Virus record (IMG/VR): IMGVR_UViG_3300005836_000008
Span: 1 to 22,684 of that record
From: a virus
Direction: 5' to 3' (one strand)
DNA: 22,684 nucleotides
Part shown: positions 3,257 through 16,542 of the stretch, in pieces
Numbering within the stretch: the stretch's first letter is position 1
Layout: each line of letters opens with the position of its first letter
Position numbers and translations under genes: made by a program
Notes under the pieces: model-generated
Database searches by the model: none
Seen by the model: only the letters and a program-made list of their open reading frames with translations
What the model was told of the DNA's origin: nothing

Positions 3257-4228
3257 TCAGCGCGCGCGCGCTTGCGCGGCCGACAGGCGGTTGATGAGGT
3301 TCTGGCGTTGCGCGATCAGATCATCACGCTGCGCATGACGCGGATCGGCCATCGCATCCTTGAATGCCTGGCTGGCCTCCAGCTTCTTGAGTTCGGCATC
3401 GAGCGTCGCGGCGCTTTCTCCGACCCCGCCGCCGCCGGTATTGGCGACAAGGTTTTCCTCGCCAACCATTTCGCCGACCTTGTTGAAGTGCTCCAGCAAC
3501 CAAGGACCGCCCATGACCTTTTCGAGCGCGGCACGCTGATCAGCGCCGATGCCGAAAAACGTCACGGCGCGGTTGGCAATTTCGGTCTTGCGCGTCTTGT
3601 CGGCGCCCCACTTGGTATCGAGCGCGGTTTGCAGTTCGGCTTGCGACTTCGCGCCCTTGACGGCGGTTTGGTCGATCAGATCCACGAAATACTTGAAACC
3701 GTCCTCGTAAATACCCTGAGCCTGCGCCAGCGGCACCTTGCGCGCGTGTGCGCTCTTGGCGATAGCCTGCTGAAACCCCTTGTCGATGATGATGCCTTCC
3801 TTGACGTCTTTCGGATCGGCGATCACATATTTTTTTTCATCCGCGACCCAGCCCAGCTTTTCCCAGCCATTCCAATCATTCAGTTTTGCCGGGTCCGGTA
3901 TTTCGAGCACGTTGCGTGCGCTCGCCATCTTGTCGGAATTCACCGCCGATTTCACCAGCGTGTTGAAATCGGGGAAATTGCGATCGGTGAGAAACTTGGC
4001 CGCGTCGGCATCGGGTTTGAGCGCAGCAAACCACGGCTCGCCGCCGCCCTGCTGGCCGCCGCCCTGCTGGCCGCCACCTTGCTGGCCGCCACCTTGCTGG
4101 CCGCCACCTTGCTGGCCGCCGCCTTGCTGGCCGCCACCTTGCTGGCCGCCACCTTGCTGGCCGCCGCCACTTTCGTTGGCCGCCTCGAACGCTGCGCCCG
4201 ATAACAGATATTTTCTCAGCATGTCCAT
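3257..4228 (-). CDS. Capsid assembly scaffolding protein with a GGGQQ repeat
   Basis: The 323-aa product sits between portal and capsid genes, the standard position of the podovirus scaffold. It has a short N-terminal helix (MDMLRKYLLSGAAFEAANES), eight exact GGGQQ pentapeptides ending in GGGEP, then a charged, mostly helical body ('DADAAKFLTDRNFPDFNTLV', 'KGFQQAIAKSAHARKVPLAQ') and a C-terminal coiled-coil-like Lys/Gln/Arg-rich helix ending in ARAR, as scaffolds use a basic C-terminal helix to touch the coat protein. AGGAG precedes the ATG by about eight bases. The repeat is a glycine-glutamine flexible linker. The function call is from position and composition. Confidence 0.72.
   Translation of the reverse strand: MDMLRKYLLSGAAFEAANESGGGQQGGGQQGGGQQGGGQQGGGQQGGGQQGGGQQGGGQQGGGEPWFAALKPDADAAKFLTDRNFPDFNTLVKSAVNSDKMASARNVLEIPDPAKLNDWNGWEKLGWVADEKKYVIADPKDVKEGIIIDKGFQQAIAKSAHARKVPLAQAQGIYEDGFKYFVDLIDQTAVKGAKSQAELQTALDTKWGADKTRKTEIANRAVTFFGIGADQRAALEKVMGGPWLLEHFNKVGEMVGEENLVANTGGGGVGESAATLDAELKKLEASQAFKDAMADPRHAQRDDLIAQRQNLINRLSAAQARAR
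4041..4169. repeat. Tandem 15-bp repeat, 8 copies, coding GGGQQ
   Basis: A 15-bp unit (plus strand of the form GCTGGCCGCCACCTT or GCTGGCCGCCGCCCT) repeats at exact 15-base spacing, with the CTGCTGG/TTGCTGG step at about 4050, 4065, 4080, 4095, 4110, 4125, 4140 and 4155. Units differ only at a third-codon position (GGC or GGT) and at one further wobble base (CAG or CAA). The unit length keeps the reading frame, so copy number can change without breaking the scaffold gene. Confidence 0.9.
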
Positions 4229-8625: not shown

Positions 8626-9008
8626 GACGCGGCCCTCACCGTTTTTGCGCGCGCGTAATTTTTGGCGACGGTCCTCTCCCCGCGCCCCTGTTGAGGCCAG
8701 AAAATTTTTCCGCGACCTCGACCCCGATCAGCACCTCGTACACGCTGACATGGGACACACCGGCGAAGTCTCAGCCGAGCACCGGCCGGAGGCCGCGCGC
8801 GCGATTTCCGGTGGTACGGGTGGCGCGCGAGTGGGGGGGGTGGTCGCCGCGCGAAGGCGTCGCCAGGTCGCGCCGGCCGGGCAAGCAGGAGCTCCACCCG
8901 GCCGGCGCGCCGACCACCTGCCGCTGCACGGCGAGGCGCGTTGCGCACCCGCCCGGCCGGTGATTTCGGATCAGCGGCCCAAGCCGCCGAATGTCTTTTT
9001 GTTTCCAT
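8622..9008 (-). CDS. Doubtful 128-aa Arg-rich frame between the terminase genes
   Basis: An ATG at 9008 overlaps the small-terminase stop (TGATG) and the frame ends exactly at the large-terminase start (ATGA), which is what a coupled gene would show. The product, however, is Arg/Ala/Pro-rich ('RRPPPPLARHPYHRKSRARP') and looks like out-of-frame GC-rich sequence. A run of eight G on the plus strand (8833-8840) sits in the middle, so a frameshift error or slippage is possible. Neither shifted frame gave me a recognisable domain. If it is not a gene, 8626-9005 is a spacer of unknown use. Confidence 0.3.
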   Translation of the reverse strand: METKRHSAAWAADPKSPAGRVRNAPRRAAAGGRRAGRVELLLARPARPGDAFARRPPPPLARHPYHRKSRARPPAGARLRLRRCVPCQRVRGADRGRGRGKIFWPQQGRGERTVAKNYARAKTVRAAS

Positions 9009-9613
9009 CACTTAGCACTCCCGTGAGACTGGTCATCATGAGACTGCGGCGGAGCCAATGCCGAAAGCCCTTGATTTTGCTGCATTTCTCGCGCGATGCG
9101 CTCGCGCGCGTCCCAGGGCGTTTCTCCGCTGTTAACCGTGATCGCCTGGCCAGCGACGACGAATTGCATGAACGGCACCGCCTGGCCCTGGTCATCGACG
9201 AATGCCAATTTAGCGTGCAAATACGGGGCTAATTCAGATTGCAGGATCCGCCACTCGCGGAACGCCTCGATCTTGGTGCAGCCGAGCTCGGCGGCCAGCA
9301 TGTCGGGCGGCACGATCGCGTAGCGCATCAGGCTCGCCAGCGGCGAAATCCCCTTACCTAACAACCAGTTGCGGAACTCGCGCGTGGTCAAGTTCTGCGC
9401 GCCAGGCGGCCGGCCCGGCCCTTGCCGGCGCTCGATCTCGCGCTGCATCGCCGCAGCCTTCTCGGCGCCGCCGCGCGAGCGCAGCGGCACCGAAAACATC
9501 GCCAGTTGTGCGCCTTTCGCGGCCGCGGCCTGCGCTTCAAATTCGGCGCTCGCCTCGCTCACGAGCTCCCGCACAATCGCGCCTTTCGCGGTGTCGCTCA
9601 CGTCCAACCCCAT
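9008..9613 (-). CDS. Probable terminase small subunit (201 aa)
   Basis: This first gene of the late operon lies upstream of terL. The core has 'GPGRPPGAQNLTTREFRNWL' near residues 70-90, then 'DMLAAELGCTKIEAFREWRI' (a helix-turn-helix-like step) and 'SELAPYLHAKLAFVDDQGQA', the sequence style of small-terminase/DNA-binding proteins in rhizobial phages ('GRP.G..N..t..f...l', '..l.pY.H.KlP'). Its job would be recognition of the packaging site. There is no strong ribosome site before the ATG at 9613. The last 30 residues are Gln/Ser/His-rich and their DNA holds two TGAGACTG repeats, described separately. The family call is by pattern, not by a full profile. Confidence 0.65.
   Translation of the reverse strand: MGLDVSDTAKGAIVRELVSEASAEFEAQAAAAKGAQLAMFSVPLRSRGGAEKAAAMQREIERRQGPGRPPGAQNLTTREFRNWLLGKGISPLASLMRYAIVPPDMLAAELGCTKIEAFREWRILQSELAPYLHAKLAFVDDQGQAVPFMQFVVAGQAITVNSGETPWDARERIAREMQQNQGLSALAPPQSHDDQSHGSAK
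9024..9047. repeat. Pair of TGAGACTG repeats like the attP arm sites
   Basis: TGAGACTGG at 9024-9032 and TGAGACTGC at 9039-9047 are 15 bases apart. They are the reverse complement of the CCAGTCTCA repeats beside attP (21913 and 21928, also 15 bases apart), and the bases between them are similar too. They lie in the 3' end of the small-terminase gene. Confidence 0.6.
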
Positions 9614-9679
9614 GAATAAACGGGATTATTTAATCGGTCGCGCGCGCCAGCGCGCCAACAGCAGCAAGGTGGCTGCACC

Positions 9680-9896
9680 GTGTCTGCCTTAGTGTCTATA
9701 GATAACATATTGAATATATTCATCTTTTATCATTTCTAGACACCTAGACACCAAGGCACCCGCTGCGCTCCCGCGCGCACGCGCGCGCACGCGAGAGCCT
9801 GCTTAATGGTGTCTAGGTGTCTGCTCCTGCTTTCCAGCTGCTCGATCAGGCACCTAGGCCAGACACCCGGTGTCTTGGCGGTGTCTTAGGTGTCTA
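9680..9896. repeat. Array of GGTGTCTA octamers (iteron-like) next to an AT-rich island
   Basis: Copies of GGTGTCT (either strand) start at 9738 and 9746 (as TAGACACC twice in tandem), 9808 and 9816 (GGTGTCTA twice in tandem), 9861 (reverse), 9869, 9880 and 9889. Looser copies are at 9680 (CGTGTCT) and 9692 (AGTGTCT), with GGCACC half-units at 9755 and 9849. Tandem pairs are exactly 8 bases apart. An AT-rich island with the palindrome GAATATATTC lies at about 9697-9737. The array is between the late operon and the end of the early operon. An iteron replication origin, an operator array for a late regulator, or a packaging site would all fit. Confidence 0.75.
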
Positions 9897-10230: not shown

Positions 10231-10258
10231 AAAAAAAAGCCGCGCTTGACGACGCGGC
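10231..10258 (-). terminator. Rho-independent terminator of the early operon
   Basis: Reading the minus strand, a GCCGCG/CGCGGC stem (10253-10258 with 10239-10244, 8-base loop) is followed by eight T (10238-10231). It lies about 60 bases past the methyltransferase stop and would end the early/replication transcript before the octamer control region and late operon. Confidence 0.85.
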
Positions 10259-10320
10259 CCTTGGATGGAGCGATTACAATTGACGGTGAGATCTACTGGC
10301 GGATTTTATTTGCGACGAAG

Positions 10321-12171
10321 CTACTCCGCCGCCTCTCTCCTGAATTCGTCCGCTCCTCGAGGCGCGACATCGCGCGGCGCAAAATTCGCCGTCACCAAAG
10401 CCTCGGCCATGACCGGCGACACCGAGTTGCCAACCATGCGGCCCTGCTGGTCGCCGGTGATCCGCTTCATGTTGGTTTTTCCGGTGCGCTTCTCCACACG
10501 CGGCACGTCCAGCTCGATGATGTAGCCAGGCGGGAAGCCTTGCGCGTTGAAGCGCTCGCGCGCGGTCAGCATTCGCATGCCAATATCGACGATCTGATAC
10601 TCGATGCCCTGCACCGTAACGATGCCGATGCGGTCGGTTGTATCGATCGTCGGCAGCGGCGCCGCCGGCGTTGCGAGCTGGCCTCCGTCGCGATGGTATT
10701 TTATCAGGAACGCCCGCACCTCGGCAATGTGCTTGCCCTGTGCCGTGATTGTCGGCACCGGAGCCTCGATCGCCGAGGCGCGGCGATCGCTGCCCTTAAG
10801 TGTCATCAAGCCGGCTGACACCACGGCGTTGTGATCCTGCGCCGTAATCGTCGAGACAGGTTCGGGCATAGGCGAGCCCGGCCGCTGGCCGGCATCGCCG
10901 TAGTGCTTCGCCAGGAACGCGGCGCAAAGGCTAATGCGATTGCCTTGCGTCGTTATCGTGCGGGCCGGCTCATCGGCTCCGGCGGCCGGCTTCTCGCCGT
11001 GATTGTTCTGCACCAGCACGGGCGCAATCAGCGACGCTTCATTGCCGGCCGGCACCACCACCGGCATCGGTTCCTCGATCGAGCGTGTGCGCGGCTCTTG
11101 GCCTGCCCGCTCGCCGTAGCGCGGCACCATGAACGGCGTCACCAGGCCGAGCGGCGAAGCGCCGCCAGGATGATCGTCGGAATGCGCCGAGGTGATGGTG
11201 TGCAAAGGCTCGCGCGCGTCGTGGCCGGTCGATTTACCGTTGAACTTGGTCACAAATGGCGTCACCAGCGCGTGCTCGCCGCGGTGCGCCGTTGTTTGTG
11301 TGCGCAGCGGCTCCTTTATTCCGTTCACCCGATCATCGCGCGCGTGCGTAATCGGCACGATGAAAGGCTCGGCCGCGTTGATGACGTAGCGATCTATGCC
11401 CTTGGCAATGCGCGCCATCGTGTTCGGTTTGAGCGGCCGGATGACGCGGATACGGTGATCCTGCCAGAGTTGTGCGACTTCGGCCGGCGTCAGGAAGATC
11501 GACGGGCAAGGCAGTGACCAGTCGATGATCTCTGCCGCGGCGCGCCAAGGCAGCAATCGCCCCGACTTGACCGCCTCGGATTTCGGATCGCCATGCGTCG
11601 GCGCCGGCCAAACGATCGGCAGGCCGTCGCGCCTGGCGATCAGGAATAGCCGTTTGCGGATGGTCGGCGCGCCATAGTCGCACGCGCGCAGCTCGCGATG
11701 CTCGACCTGGTAGCCGAGCGACTTGAGCTTTCCGACCCAACGTCGGAACGTGAAGCCTTTGCGATCGGGGCAAGGCCGGCCGTTCGCGCCGAGCGGTCCC
11801 CAGGTCGCAAATTCCTCGACGTTTTCCAGCATGATGACGCGCGGCTGCACCAGCCTTGCCCAACGCACCACCACCCAGGCCAGATCGCGGATTTTCTTTT
11901 CGACCGTCTTGCCGCCTTTGGCTTTGGAAAAATGCTTGCAATCCGGCGAGGCCCACAGCAGCCCGACCGGGCGGCCGGCGCAAGCCTCACGCGGATCAAC
12001 CTTCCAGATGTCATTGGAAAGGTGCCGCGTTGTTGGATGGTTTGCCAGATGCATCGCCAGCGCGATCGCATCGTGATTGATCGCAATGTCGGGCGCGCGA
12101 CCAACAGCCAATTCGATACCGGCAGATGCTCCGCCGCCGCCGGCAAAACTATCGACGATGATTTCGTGCAT
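10321..12171 (-). CDS. C5 cytosine DNA methyltransferase with a repeat-built recognition region (616 aa)
   Basis: The product transfers a methyl group from S-adenosylmethionine to cytosine C5 in DNA. Motif I is 'SFAGGGGASAGIE' (8-20), motif IV 'SPDCKHFS' (75-82) with catalytic Cys78, motif VI 'ENVEE' (116-120), motif VIII 'IRKRLFLIAR' (171-180), and motifs IX/X 'MLTARERFNAQGFP' (534-547) and 'GNSVSP' (581-586). Between VIII and IX the protein carries about seven degenerate repeats of the form 'EP..TITA...H..lv..fl.ky.g' (residues 286-515). The gene is last in the early operon, seven bases after the helicase stop, with a GGAGAGGTAAGG leader. It could protect phage DNA from host restriction. 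No partner nuclease is visible, so it is an orphan methylase. Confidence 0.92.
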   Translation of the reverse strand: MHEIIVDSFAGGGGASAGIELAVGRAPDIAINHDAIALAMHLANHPTTRHLSNDIWKVDPREACAGRPVGLLWASPDCKHFSKAKGGKTVEKKIRDLAWVVVRWARLVQPRVIMLENVEEFATWGPLGANGRPCPDRKGFTFRRWVGKLKSLGYQVEHRELRACDYGAPTIRKRLFLIARRDGLPIVWPAPTHGDPKSEAVKSGRLLPWRAAAEIIDWSLPCPSIFLTPAEVAQLWQDHRIRVIRPLKPNTMARIAKGIDRYVINAAEPFIVPITHARDDRVNGIKEPLRTQTTAHRGEHALVTPFVTKFNGKSTGHDAREPLHTITSAHSDDHPGGASPLGLVTPFMVPRYGERAGQEPRTRSIEEPMPVVVPAGNEASLIAPVLVQNNHGEKPAAGADEPARTITTQGNRISLCAAFLAKHYGDAGQRPGSPMPEPVSTITAQDHNAVVSAGLMTLKGSDRRASAIEAPVPTITAQGKHIAEVRAFLIKYHRDGGQLATPAAPLPTIDTTDRIGIVTVQGIEYQIVDIGMRMLTARERFNAQGFPPGYIIELDVPRVEKRTGKTNMKRITGDQQGRMVGNSVSPVMAEALVTANFAPRDVAPRGADEFRREAAE

Positions 12172-12178
12172 GCCACCC

Positions 12179-14140
12179 TTACCTCTCCGGCGCTTCTCTA
12201 TATTTCCGCATCACGATCAGCGTGCAGCGCTCTTGCTCGCCGCCGACCAGAACGCGGTTGACGTGCTTGTCGGTAATCATGATGCCGGGCAGCGGGCATT
12301 GCCGCAGCGCGTCGCGCCAGCCGCCGCCCGCCCAATCCGTCTCGCTTAGCAGCCGCTTGAGTTTTGCGTGCGCGTTCGGCACCGCCAGCAGCCAGCCGTC
12401 GTCTTTCATGAGGCCGAGCTTTTGCCCGGCGGCGTCCGGTGAAATATCGAGCGCCGCCGCCAGTTTGGAAATCACCACTTCGGCGTGGACGATGCCGAGC
12501 CCGCCGGCGGCGAGATCGCGCATTGCTTCGGCGCGGCCGTATTTCTTGTCCTCCGCCACGCCGACGCGCTCGCCCTCCTCCAGATCGGCAATGCACTGGC
12601 CGACGCTGGCGTGGCGGCCGCCGCGCCAGGCGTCCGGCTGGCCCTGCAACAGCGCCTTAACCATCTTGCGCCAGTTCGCCATGGCGTCCTCGATCTCAGG
12701 CAACAGATCGGCCGACAAGTGCTCGGTCCACCAGCCGAGATCCTCGGTCAGCCGCACGTCGAGCTTTTCTGCGGCATCGGCGCCGAGCAGCAAATCGGCG
12801 CACGCCACCAGCGTGCCGTAGGTCTTTTGGCCGCGCGCATCGTGGCCGCCGGCGGCCAGCGCGCGCATGTATTCGGCGCGCGTCTCGTGAAAGCGCGGCC
12901 ACTCGCGCATCAAATGCGCCAGCACCATGCGGCCGCAGGCATCGGCGTCGATCGAGGGCGCTTGCGTCTGGCCCTCTTTCAGCGGCCACAGCCGCAGCGC
13001 CGCCACGCGGCTTAAGTCCTGCGCCTGGTGCAGCGGATTGTTGATGGCGGAAAACAAAAACGCCGAGCGCATCTGGAATTGGCTCGCCATGCCGTCCGAG
13101 CCGCCGCGCCGGCCGATCGCGCCGCTCGACGCATCGCGCATCAGTTGCACCACGTTCTGCACCTTGCGCATATCGGTGCCCGGCTCCAGTTCGTCGAGCG
13201 CTACCGGCCGGGTGTCCTGTTTCATCGCCTGATAGATGCCGGCGGCGCTGGTGTCGGCGGAATGAAACAGCGCCTCGCCGAATAGATCGCGCAGGCCCTC
13301 TTGCAGCGAGCTCTTGCCGGTGCCCTTGTCGCCGAGCAGGATCACGGCCGAGCGCCAGTCGAGCGCGCCGCCGAGATAAGCAACGCCGATCCAGCCGAGC
13401 ATCAGCAGCGGGTCGATCAGCGGCCGCGCCCACGGCCACAGCCGCAGCGTTTCCAACAGGCTCACCGCCGGATTGTCGGCCGGCTTGATTTTCTCGGTCC
13501 AGGGCGAGGGCAGCGCGGTGAAGCGCGGATAGAAAAAACCCTCGTGCAGTCCGGTTTCCATGACCACCGGGCGGCCCTTGCCTTGGTCGAAGGTCCACAG
13601 TTCCTCGCCGGCGTGATAGATCAGCCCGCCGCCTTTGGTGAGCCACATGCCGCGGCCGCGCAGCTTGTCGGACGGCGAGAACAGGCCGCGCCGCGAGCAC
13701 GCCAGCATCAACGCCGAGCGCGCCTTGTCGTCGTCGAAACTCTTGATCGGCGGCGGCGCCGGCTTTTCGCCTTCCTTCGGCGCCGCGGCGCGGCCATAGC
13801 GCGGCCATGCCCACTGCGGCCAGTTCGGTGTCAGCGCAAACAGCCCTTGCATGCCGGCATGCGACAGATCGCCGGCGATCATCGAGCGGAATTGCCCGGC
13901 GCTGTCGATCAGGTGATAGAACTCGCCCTCGATGCCGAGCGGCACCACCGGGCACGGGTCCTCGCGCGGCAGGCCGAGATTGTCCGGCGTCCACTTACCT
14001 GGCGGCGTGCCGTCGCGCGCCTCGCGCGGCGGCGGATCGTCGCGCCGGCGTTTCTGCCGGGCGAGATCGCGCGCGGCGTCCGCCATCGACACCACATTAG
14101 CGTCGGCGCCGCCAGCCAGCTTGGTGGGCTTGTCCGTCAC
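12179..14140 (-). CDS. Replicative helicase-like ATPase (SF3/D5-type, 653 aa)
   Basis: The centre is a P-loop ATPase: Walker A GDKGTGKS at 270-277, Walker B 'PVALDELEP' at 312-320, and an SF3-like motif C/arginine finger region 'FSAINNPLHQAQDLSRVAAL' (363-382). An N-terminal region of about 230 residues precedes it, and a C-terminal winged-helix-like stretch ('ISPDAAGQKLGLMKDDGWLL') follows. The GTG at 14140 overlaps the primase stop as GTGA and gives a natural N-terminus; upstream codons in frame are primase shadow. Together with the primase it forms a two-gene replication initiation/unwinding module. The domain order, with no primase domain of its own, fits a helicase loaded at a phage origin. 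Confidence 0.82.
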   Translation of the reverse strand: MTDKPTKLAGGADANVVSMADAARDLARQKRRRDDPPPREARDGTPPGKWTPDNLGLPREDPCPVVPLGIEGEFYHLIDSAGQFRSMIAGDLSHAGMQGLFALTPNWPQWAWPRYGRAAAPKEGEKPAPPPIKSFDDDKARSALMLACSRRGLFSPSDKLRGRGMWLTKGGGLIYHAGEELWTFDQGKGRPVVMETGLHEGFFYPRFTALPSPWTEKIKPADNPAVSLLETLRLWPWARPLIDPLLMLGWIGVAYLGGALDWRSAVILLGDKGTGKSSLQEGLRDLFGEALFHSADTSAAGIYQAMKQDTRPVALDELEPGTDMRKVQNVVQLMRDASSGAIGRRGGSDGMASQFQMRSAFLFSAINNPLHQAQDLSRVAALRLWPLKEGQTQAPSIDADACGRMVLAHLMREWPRFHETRAEYMRALAAGGHDARGQKTYGTLVACADLLLGADAAEKLDVRLTEDLGWWTEHLSADLLPEIEDAMANWRKMVKALLQGQPDAWRGGRHASVGQCIADLEEGERVGVAEDKKYGRAEAMRDLAAGGLGIVHAEVVISKLAAALDISPDAAGQKLGLMKDDGWLLAVPNAHAKLKRLLSETDWAGGGWRDALRQCPLPGIMITDKHVNRVLVGGEQERCTLIVMRKYREAPER

Positions 14141-15288
14141 GCGGCCCCGCGCAGTGTGTCGTTGAGATCCTTGCCGTGCATGGCCGCGACTTCCGCCACC
14201 GGCCGGCCGGTCGCTTCCAGCGCCGCCTTGGCGCGCTCGAATTGCTCGACCGCCTGCGGTTTGAGCCAGTCGTTTTGCCGATGCACGATGATGCTGTCGC
14301 AACATTCCGGCAGCACGTCCGCCAGCGCCGCCAGATTGGACAGCGAGATCGCCGCCCAATAACGATGCTGCGGCGCCGCCAGTACGCCGGAATAGCCGTC
14401 CTCCCAGCCTTCGGTGAACACGAAGGTTTCGCGCAAGCCGGCGGCGTTAGCCTCCGCGATCGACAGATTGCTCTCGCCGCGCCACAGCGGGATGACGAGC
14501 CCGGCCGTCGCTGGCCAGCACTTGCGCGGCGGCTGCACGGGCGCCTTGTCGAAGCCGTCCTGCGCCAGCCAGACGCGATGAATGGCCTTGATAACGCCCT
14601 TACCATCCTCGGCGGAAAAATCGACGCACGGCGCCACAATGCACGGCCAGAAACTCTCCTGTCCGTTGTGCTTGTCTTGTCTGTCGCGGCTTTGCCAGAT
14701 GTGCTTTTCGTGCTGCAGGAAATGCAGAATATCCGGTTGCCGCCGCCCGCCGCGCGGGCCCTTCGGCAACAGATCAAAATTGAGCCCGCGCGCCTCGATC
14801 ACGTAGCGCAACGGAATGGCGTGGCTGTAGATCTCCGGCGCTTCGATCCAGATCTGGCGGGCGCGACCTTGGTCGCGCGCGTCCTTCTCGGCTGCCTCTT
14901 TGTTAATGACCGCCTGACGCTGGCGCGAGGCCGCGTCGTCGCGCGCCCGCTGCGCCGGATCGATGCGCGCCAGCCCGGTAAACTCCAGCAGAAAGCGGCG
15001 CGCTTCCTTGCGGCCCTGCCCCGGCAGGCTCGACCAGCATTTCAGATGCGCAACAATATCGATGACGTCGCCCTTCTCGCCGGTGCCGTAGTCTTTCCAC
15101 GCGATCTGCCCGCGATGCGTCCAGATGGCGAACGACGGATTGTTGTCCTTGCGTACCGGCGACGACATCAGGATCAGACCCTTGCCGTTCGGCCGCTCCT
15201 TGATGCCGAGCGCCAGCAGCAATTCAGCGCCGCGCGCATTGGCCGCGGTCTTGATCTGATCGATGGTCGGGCCGGTGTATTGCGTCAT
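14137..15288 (-). CDS. Toprim-domain DNA primase (383 aa)
   Basis: The N-terminal 80 residues resemble the zinc-binding domain of phage primases ('SSPVRKDNNPSFAIW' at 43-57, then 'GDVIDIVA' at 73-80) but the metal-binding Cys/His are missing. The C-terminal part holds a Toprim segment: 'FVFTEGWEDGYS' (289-300) with Glu293 as the catalytic acid, then 'CDSIIVHRQND' (330-340) where the usual DxD motif is reduced to a single Asp. Length is typical for rhizobial phage Toprim primases. The ATG at 15288 overlaps the stop of the 53-aa gene by ATGA. It makes primers for phage replication with the adjoining helicase. The reduced motifs may mean weakened or altered activity. Confidence 0.78.
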   Translation of the reverse strand: MTQYTGPTIDQIKTAANARGAELLLALGIKERPNGKGLILMSSPVRKDNNPSFAIWTHRGQIAWKDYGTGEKGDVIDIVAHLKCWSSLPGQGRKEARRFLLEFTGLARIDPAQRARDDAASRQRQAVINKEAAEKDARDQGRARQIWIEAPEIYSHAIPLRYVIEARGLNFDLLPKGPRGGRRQPDILHFLQHEKHIWQSRDRQDKHNGQESFWPCIVAPCVDFSAEDGKGVIKAIHRVWLAQDGFDKAPVQPPRKCWPATAGLVIPLWRGESNLSIAEANAAGLRETFVFTEGWEDGYSGVLAAPQHRYWAAISLSNLAALADVLPECCDSIIVHRQNDWLKPQAVEQFERAKAALEATGRPVAEVAAMHGKDLNDTLRGAA

Positions 15289-15446
15289 GATCTTATTTTT
15301 GGGCGAGGACAAAAGCAGTGCGCAAAAACGAGCGCGGCGACGCTTAGGACAATCCACACAACGTAGAAGATGGTCGCCCCATCGCGGATATAGTTTGCCG
15401 CCGCCAAAATCGTCGCATTTATGCTCAGTACGAAAAACAAATTCAT
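15285..15446 (-). CDS. 53-aa two-helix membrane protein
   Basis: A short gene starts at ATG 15446 and stops at TGA 15287-15285. Its start overlaps the upstream gene's stop (ATGA) and its stop overlaps the primase start (ATGA), so it is locked in the operon. The product has two hydrophobic segments (FFVLSINATILAAANYI and FYVVWIVLSVAALVFAHCF) and a short basic tail (PRPKIRS). It could be a holin-like, superinfection-exclusion or membrane-anchor protein. No family recognised. Its place before the primase, away from late genes, argues against a classical holin. Confidence 0.65.
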   Translation of the reverse strand: MNLFFVLSINATILAAANYIRDGATIFYVVWIVLSVAALVFAHCFCPRPKIRS

Positions 15447-15751
15447 TTTCTCGGCAACCTTTCCCGCTCGGCCAATTGCTGCGCGCGCGCAATCGCCAGC
15501 GTCAGTTGATGCGCGGCTTCTTTCAGATGCTTGGCGGCCTTGGCGTGCTCGCCGAGCGCGGCGTGCATGCCGCCGAGGATGATCTGGTAGAAAATCTCCT
15601 TGAGCATCGGCGCAATTTGCGCCGGCGGCGCTTGCGTTCCCTCGACGTTGGCGAGCTCAGCGCATTCCCGCAGCGCCGCCTGGCCGCGCGCGCGCGTCGG
15701 TTCGATGCCCTGCCCGAAGCCCGGCCCGCGATCGGTTATGTTAAGCGCCAT
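15443..15751 (-). CDS. Hypothetical helical protein (102 aa)
   Basis: The product is mostly helix: 'IAPMLKEIFYQIILGGMHAA', 'GEHAKAAKHLKEAAHQLTLA' and 'IARAQQLAERERLPRK', resembling a helical-hairpin or tetratricopeptide-like repeat. It begins inside the upstream two-HTH gene (11-base overlap) and ends in an ATGA overlap with the 53-aa gene. A role in early phage replication or regulation is suggested only by the operon. Confidence 0.65.
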   Translation of the reverse strand: MALNITDRGPGFGQGIEPTRARGQAALRECAELANVEGTQAPPAQIAPMLKEIFYQIILGGMHAALGEHAKAAKHLKEAAHQLTLAIARAQQLAERERLPRK

Positions 15752-16343
15752 TGCAGCCTCCCCTCATGTCCGCCGCGAAGCGGTCGAGAAATTCATCGGC
15801 GGCCGCTGCCTCGCGCAGGCCCTCGATGCGCGCCCGCGTCTGGTTGACGTTCTGCCGTGTGCAGCCGACCGCGCGCGCCAGTTCCGCGTTGTTGATTTCG
15901 ATCTCGACCGCCAGCACATAGAGCGCGATGGCGCGCAGCCGGCCGGCGTTCACATGAGGCCGCTGGCCGTGGCTCGACTGGCTGCCGAGCGCCGCCAGCA
16001 CCGCCACATCCGCATTGATGCGCTCCGCCAGCACGATCTCGACCACGCGCACGAAGGCGCGCAACGCTGCGGGCTGCATCGGCACATGCCAGTTCCAGGC
16101 CGGATCGAGCGTGGCGGCCAGCCGCTGCAACGTGATCTGCCGTCTCGGATGATCGGCCGCCTGCCCGCTTCTGATCGCGGCCCACGTCGAGCGCGCCACG
16201 CCGGCGCGGCCGAGCATAGTCATGACGCTGACGCCGGCCGCCTTGCGCTGCCGCTCGATCGCCGCGAAGCTCAACAGCGCGCGCGCCGAGGCCGATCGCT
16301 TGGGCAACTCCGCGCCGATGTCGGCCGTGGCTGGCGCCAGCAT
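15741..16343 (-). CDS. Two-HTH DNA-binding protein (200 aa)
   Basis: Two helix-turn-helix segments can be seen: 'SVMTMLGRAGVARSTWAAIR' (39-58), of lambda-repressor/XRE style, and 'INNAELARAVGCTRQNVNQT' (150-169), resembling the C-terminal DnaA-like HTH of alphaproteobacterial regulators. The middle (90-125) is helical and leucine-rich, likely for dimerisation. The ATG at 16343 has AGGTGAG at good spacing, and the frame open upstream is a shadow. It lies first in the replication half of the early operon, so it may be an initiator recognising an origin or a regulator of early or late promoters. It is the best candidate to bind the GGTGTCTA array, as a guess from position. Confidence 0.7.
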   Translation of the reverse strand: MLAPATADIGAELPKRSASARALLSFAAIERQRKAAGVSVMTMLGRAGVARSTWAAIRSGQAADHPRRQITLQRLAATLDPAWNWHVPMQPAALRAFVRVVEIVLAERINADVAVLAALGSQSSHGQRPHVNAGRLRAIALYVLAVEIEINNAELARAVGCTRQNVNQTRARIEGLREAAAADEFLDRFAADMRGGCNGA

Positions 16344-16347
16344 AAGC

Positions 16348-16542
16348 TCACCTGTTGAAGGCGCGGCGGAGCGCGTCGCCGTCGCTGCGGGAATTATCGA
16401 CCACCAGCAGCGGCTTGGTGCGCGGCGGCTGGCAGAAGCGGGCATGATGGAAGCCGCTGATTTCGCGGTCGGCCTGCTCGGCGGCGTCGAGCGTGAAGCG
16501 CTCGATGCGGATCACCGGCAGATAGATGACCTCGGCGCTCAT
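16348..16542 (-). CDS. Hypothetical protein (64 aa)
   Basis: Start ATG at 16542 overlaps the stop of the gene upstream (ATGA) and the stop is five bases before the two-HTH gene. The product begins 'MSAEVIYLPVIRIERFTLDA' and ends 'SDGDALRRAFNR'. It is a compact, mixed-charge protein with no recognised domain. The longer open frame upstream is a shadow. Confidence 0.6.
   Translation of the reverse strand: MSAEVIYLPVIRIERFTLDAAEQADREISGFHHARFCQPPRTKPLLVVDNSRSDGDALRRAFNR

Follow-up and report, generated by a model that had tools for sequence, protein, structure and literature searches.

What is the function of a dense cluster of short repeats in the main intergenic gap of a temperate phage? The question is raised by a 22.7-kb virus record (22,684 nt; the whole of this stretch is called the window here), which encodes TerL, a portal/head-tail adaptor and an integrase, and whose TerL is ~30% identical to that of BcepC6B. 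An initial annotation had placed an iteron-like array with an AT-rich stretch at 9680–9896, and had proposed that it might be a replication origin, a packaging start or a multi-site operator for the late promoter. The interval proved to be right, as did the gap boundaries, which are a terminator-like hairpin and a methyltransferase (MTase) gene on one side and TerS (small terminase) on the other. The name TerS was inferred from the position of the gene and the presence of TerL close downstream.

The repeats themselves were as described, tandem and in both orientations. GGTGTCT occurs nine times in the window (0.79 expected per window; a count of nine was reached by 0/100 dinucleotide shuffles), and eight of these copies lie within 158 bp (9738–9895). 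Two more GTGTCT hexamers, at 9680 and 9692, flank the AT island, and no other 50 bp of the window is as rich in AT as the stretch recorded beside the heptamers (9688–9737, 80% AT). A perfect 16-nt inverted repeat joins the 9808–9822 region with 9738–9753. When any clustered 7-mer was searched for blindly, the GGTGTCT array was recovered, and the sole denser cluster was a coding direct repeat at 3997–4177, where an ORF on the minus strand (3257–4228) contains GCGGCCA ten times as direct copies, all in the same orientation. When the 707-bp gap was shuffled by itself under a Markov model, the top non-CG 7-mer averaged 3.2 copies with a maximum of 8, so that the copy number of GGTGTCT inside the gap is less impressive than its ordered layout. 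An Rfam search of the gap and a nucleotide search of phages with it gave no match, and no DnaA-box enrichment was seen. GC skew, a check that had been suggested for this locus, does not point to the array and was uninformative on near-complete relatives.

Table 1 Features of the array and of the neighbouring genes in the window.
Feature	Position	Strand	Remark
TerS (small terminase) homologue, start of late genes	9008..9613	-	shared with TerL in relatives
Quasi-dyad box GATTAAATAATCCCGTTTATTC, immediately 5′ to TerS, outside origin as defined	9613..9635	-	tracks TerS, not array
Site III, degenerate	9680..9697	+	GTGTCT at 9680 and 9692
AT-rich island	9698..9737		82.5% AT, between direct pair and site III
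Direct pair (read towards TerS)	9738..9752	-	two GGTGTCT, 8-nt period
GC-rich core between pairs, ~55 nt	9753..9807		with alternating purine/pyrimidine run
Inverted pair (read towards TerS)	9808..9822	+	two GGTGTCT, 8-nt period
Site I	9861..9895		AGACACC at 9861; GGTGTCT at 9869, 9880, 9889
GGTGTCT	9808, 9816, 9869, 9880, 9889	+	
GGTGTCT	9738, 9746, 9861	-	
Terminator-like hairpin, end of replication operon	10235..10262	-	weak: 2 found, 1.2 expected
C5-cytosine methyltransferase (MTase), between helicase and array, outside origin	10321..12171	-	Pfam PF00145
P-loop replicative helicase homologue	12179..14083 (ORF to 14359)	-	PHROG primase/unknown matches; homologues in relatives
Toprim primase, same replication module	14137..15492	-	Pfam DUF7146 and Toprim_3

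Read on the minus strand towards TerS, the elements follow one another as site I, inverted pair, core, direct pair, AT gap, site III, 23-bp box and TerS (Table 1). The longest alternating purine/pyrimidine run of the window (22 nt, 9772–9793) lies inside the core, and the AT island at 9698–9737 is a candidate DNA-unwinding element. A cluster matching site I is present in relatives G002, G004, G006, G010, G018, G016 and G020, and site III has three full copies in several relatives.

A search for the tandem octamer, as proposed by the initial annotation, found the array in nine other viral contigs, a search for the two-pair pattern found four, one of them new, and more relatives were added by a TerL profile. 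Under the initial annotation, the proposal was to fall if relatives of like gene order lacked the array; such relatives do have it. G002, G004, G006 and G010 share both TerS (36–44%) and TerL (48–52%) with the window. Across relatives the geometry is the same but the units differ, being GGTGTCC in G018, GGTAACC in L039, GTTGCC in G015 and GTTGCA in G022, G023 and G025. The core gap measures 46–57 nt in GTGTCT/GTGTCC members and L039, and 65–83 nt in others. From the forward set to site III the distance is 37–39 nt in the window, G002, G004, G006, G016, G018, G020 and L039; it rises to 47 nt in G008 and to 48 nt in L015, a prophage remnant. No site III was detected in G010, and with other units the gaps differ but are similar. 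Most relatives carry an alternating run of 14–28 nt in the core, with phi1422 (9 nt) and MT835534 (13 nt) as exceptions, and the 40-nt stretch that follows the forward set is rich in AT in most members, although not in G020, G002 and G018 (38–45% AT). In G004 and G010 one contig end carries a tRNA-Lys gene and the other lies near a tRNA fragment, the pattern expected of prophages integrated at a tRNA.

A prospective scan, conducted with the helicase profile only, yielded 80 viral loci with a homologue of the window helicase, a few of which (e.g. G002, G006, G010, G018, G021) had already been used to form the hypothesis. A blind detector, specifying an inverted pair, 38–95 nt, a direct pair and at least six copies of any 6-mer (exact 6-mers only), identified the array geometry in 54/80 helicase loci versus 0/80 Markov controls, which are lenient in that they keep dinucleotide composition and not coding structure. 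Strict detection was negative in 26/80. As the control is lenient, the better argument is the bias in position: the array lies downstream of the helicase in 53 of the 54 positive loci. After dereplication, 47/65 clusters were positive, with a median helicase distance of 515 bp and 35 within 1.5 kb.

In Bdellovibrio phage phi1422, 10 bp separate the array from the end of the primase-helicase gene, and TerS/TerL are ~7 kb away; in the IMG/VR contig G008 the array begins ~20 bp after a helicase gene, with a candidate TerL ~3 kb away; the G008 helicase has no detectable homology to that of the window. The array abuts the helicase gene in MinM1, is just upstream of it in Acjo_20 and next to it in MT835534, and lies immediately 3′ of the proposed initiator gene in phi1422, G010 and G015. 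In MQ-4 and ZRG1 the arrays are weaker or one-sided and lie 1.7–4.6 kb from the helicase. Among TerS-bearing loci of known helicase status, a helicase was encoded in 39/39 with an array and in 10/14 without (Fisher p=0.003, a value that is approximate because these loci were not dereplicated). No array was detected in four TerS contigs of >20 kb that had no helicase, and BcepC6B, which has a related TerL and was not among the helicase-search matches, has no comparable array.

The helicase of the window has no Pfam match, including to D5_N/Pox_D5. A structure prediction from 7 sequences had a mean pLDDT of 55, a model too poor for a fold search to be meaningful; a PDB sequence search returned P-loop noise only, and hhalign of the protein against P4 alpha and the G008/G005 helicases aligned the Walker A region only.

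Known replicons offer precedents for such an arrangement. The crr of P4 resembles the window array in having 8-mer type I iterons (TGTTCACC) in both orientations near a primase-helicase gene, with adjacent tandem copies ~9–11 nt apart. It differs in iteron sequence from the GGTGTCT unit, and lies directly 3′ of the alpha (primase-helicase) gene, whereas one gene separates helicase and array in the window. P4 also splits ori and crr ~5 kb apart, a (CG)n core was not seen in it, and its alpha protein combines Zn-ribbon, Toprim, D5_N and Pox_D5, while in the window Toprim is on a separate protein. Plasmid iteron origins of the RepA/TrfA type likewise have repeats plus an AT-rich element, but they have longer direct repeats, unlike the 7–8-nt units in both orientations of the window array, which also shows no enrichment of DnaA boxes. 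In PICI origins two iteron sets flank an AT-rich region 3′ of rep (PMC6092414), much as the direct pair and degenerate site III flank the AT-rich 9698–9737. The Rep protein of SaPI reads iterons downstream of its own gene via its C-terminal domain (PMC7581432), and the C-terminal domain of SCCmec Cch2 also binds iterons. By contrast with PICI/SaPI, in which the origin is immediately 3′ of the initiator, 2.3 kb with the MTase gene and terminator-like hairpin intervene in the window; there are four clusters around a GC-rich alternating core; and the window is a full-size temperate phage with TerL and portal, not a satellite without most structural genes.

Taken together, the helicase association, the geometry and these analogies favour the origin among the three functions first proposed, and speak for neither the packaging start nor the late-promoter operator. 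We consider the array to be, most probably, the iteron-type replication origin of this temperate phage, on evidence that is all comparative and comes from relatives that are mostly metagenomic contigs. Such an origin would work like P4 crr or a PICI/SaPI ori, without being either by the features tested, and the likeliest reader of its units would be the phage helicase. The helicase, probably via its C-terminal domain as in SaPI Rep, would assemble as oligomers on the 7-nt units to either side of the core. The AT-rich gap would melt, the helicase would load there and the Toprim primase would prime. Because the two sets converge, there would be room for two helicase rings and hence for bidirectional replication.

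A variant of this reading, which does not exclude the rest of it, is that the origin is read by the two-HTH protein (15741–16445) or by the primase, which are encoded in the same early operon. The two-HTH family has Pfam HTH support in L039 and L031, and the unit follows similarity of the primase no less closely than that of the helicase. However, the two-HTH protein occurs in 49/80 loci, against 71 for the primase, and its covariation with the unit is weaker, while the helicase is the reader in the precedents from P4, SaPI and SCCmec. We regard this variant as rather unlikely.

The position of the array argues against the origin reading, since in the family of the window the array is physically tied more tightly to TerS than to the helicase: it lies 36–191 nt from the TerS ORF in 42/44 phages, while its distance from the helicase varies from 0.2 to 6 kb. 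For this adjacency, a packaging initiation site (pac or cosB-like), at which TerS would bind the repeats and TerL cut nearby, was the reading first favoured. In lambda-type cos/cosB or pac, too, repeats lie directly upstream of TerS; the G006 array, placed between TerS and TerL, is still in the terminase block, and a number of contigs have an end inside the array or close to it. The only such end examined closely, in G018, is probably an assembly break: this contig (L048/L061) is a circular map, with an overlap of ~125 bp between its ends, that is broken at the (CG)n run of the core, which suggests that the core disrupts assembly.

A comparison of G013 and G017 led to the packaging site being dropped. 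Their DNA is 87% identical from the box through TerS and TerL (TerS 86%, TerL 95% at the amino acid level), but upstream of the box there is no alignment, and the units are AGACAG and GCAACA at the same spacing. GRPPGA and the region following it in TerS are nearly identical despite the different units. (The G013 contig ends inside the array, and only site III is visible.) Conversely, L116 and L118 have the same unit with TerS proteins only 37% identical. Together with the helicase-less TerS contigs that have no array, and with phi1422 and G008, whose arrays are kilobases from the terminase genes, this makes a packaging site read by TerS improbable. Almost every TerS relative has a 23-bp quasi-dyad (GAATTAAA-N7-GTTTATTC) immediately 5′ to TerS (L040:105, L048:244, L051:305 and others; apparently inverted in L009). 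This separate box remains beside TerS where the array has been exchanged, and so could be a packaging or late-promoter element. As for the constant proximity of array and TerS, it is plausible that the origin ends the replication block and that genes insert between helicase and origin.

Two further comparisons do not discriminate. Co-occurrence alone cannot separate helicase from TerS, because 44/47 array-positive clusters also carry TerS. Covariation of the unit favoured the helicase in a set of n=10 with units assigned by eye (helicase given TerS, r=0.66, p=0.0015; TerS given helicase, r=-0.10) and at n=44 (helicase 0.31 versus TerS 0.07). These results were contradicted in a subset of n=29, in which the relation to TerS given the helicase C-terminus was positive and TerS or primase was favoured (helicase C-terminus 0.17 versus TerS 0.35), so that covariation cannot decide between the two proteins; the Mantel tests were mixed and were not used as decisive evidence.

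The reading of the array as a multi-site operator for the late (TerS) promoter or an early/late switch is very improbable, since its place at the early/late boundary, the HTH proteins of the early operon and the neighbouring gene of a late-activator family in MQ-4 or an antiterminator family in MinM1 are outweighed by a gap scan that found no sigma-70-like promoter, by the G006 array lying between TerS and TerL, by an array unlike an operator in its ~230-bp extent, near-fixed geometry and variable core, by unit similarity tracking the two-HTH protein least among the proteins tested (r=0.43 versus 0.60–0.66), and by the association of the array with the helicase across phages.

Returning to the origin reading, the chances seem about even that these arrays represent a widespread class of phage origin that is set by geometry and not by sequence. 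In such a class the iteron clusters would keep a near-fixed spacing about a core, usually a tract of alternating purines and pyrimidines, and the unit would drift quickly with its module and could be exchanged by recombination at a junction just upstream of TerS. In the open-access texts searched, the phage array was not found described, and a literature search for the octamer TAGACACC gave unrelated matches only. If the class is real, an origin plan that has been called unique to PICIs is shared by full-size phages from several host groups. A plan related to PICI origins is seen next to a helicase family without a name in dozens of phage contigs. It offers a simple computational handle for locating phage origins, a natural data set for iteron-initiator co-evolution and a direct test of shared ancestry of satellite and phage replicons.

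Other repeats were encountered during these searches. L031, from relative G010, has nineteen direct copies of ACGGCTA at 2346–2544. Inverted pairs of CCAAGACACCAAGACACC ... GGTGTCTTGGTGTCTTGG recur at several chromosomal places, mostly of one Acidobacteria MAG (L016–L022, L026), and occur in other bacteria (L023–L025); these bacterial genome matches (L016–L026) were set aside as probably a different chromosomal repeat. A second phage group (L006, L010, L012), apparently unrelated to that of the window, has GGTGTCTA arrays with inverted pairs, without a (CG)n core and near a RuvC-like gene. Finally, the chromosome of Pararhizobium sp. ih9 carries two prophages or remnants of the family with different units, L039 (GGTAACC) and L015 (GGTGTCTT), which are possibly compatible origins.
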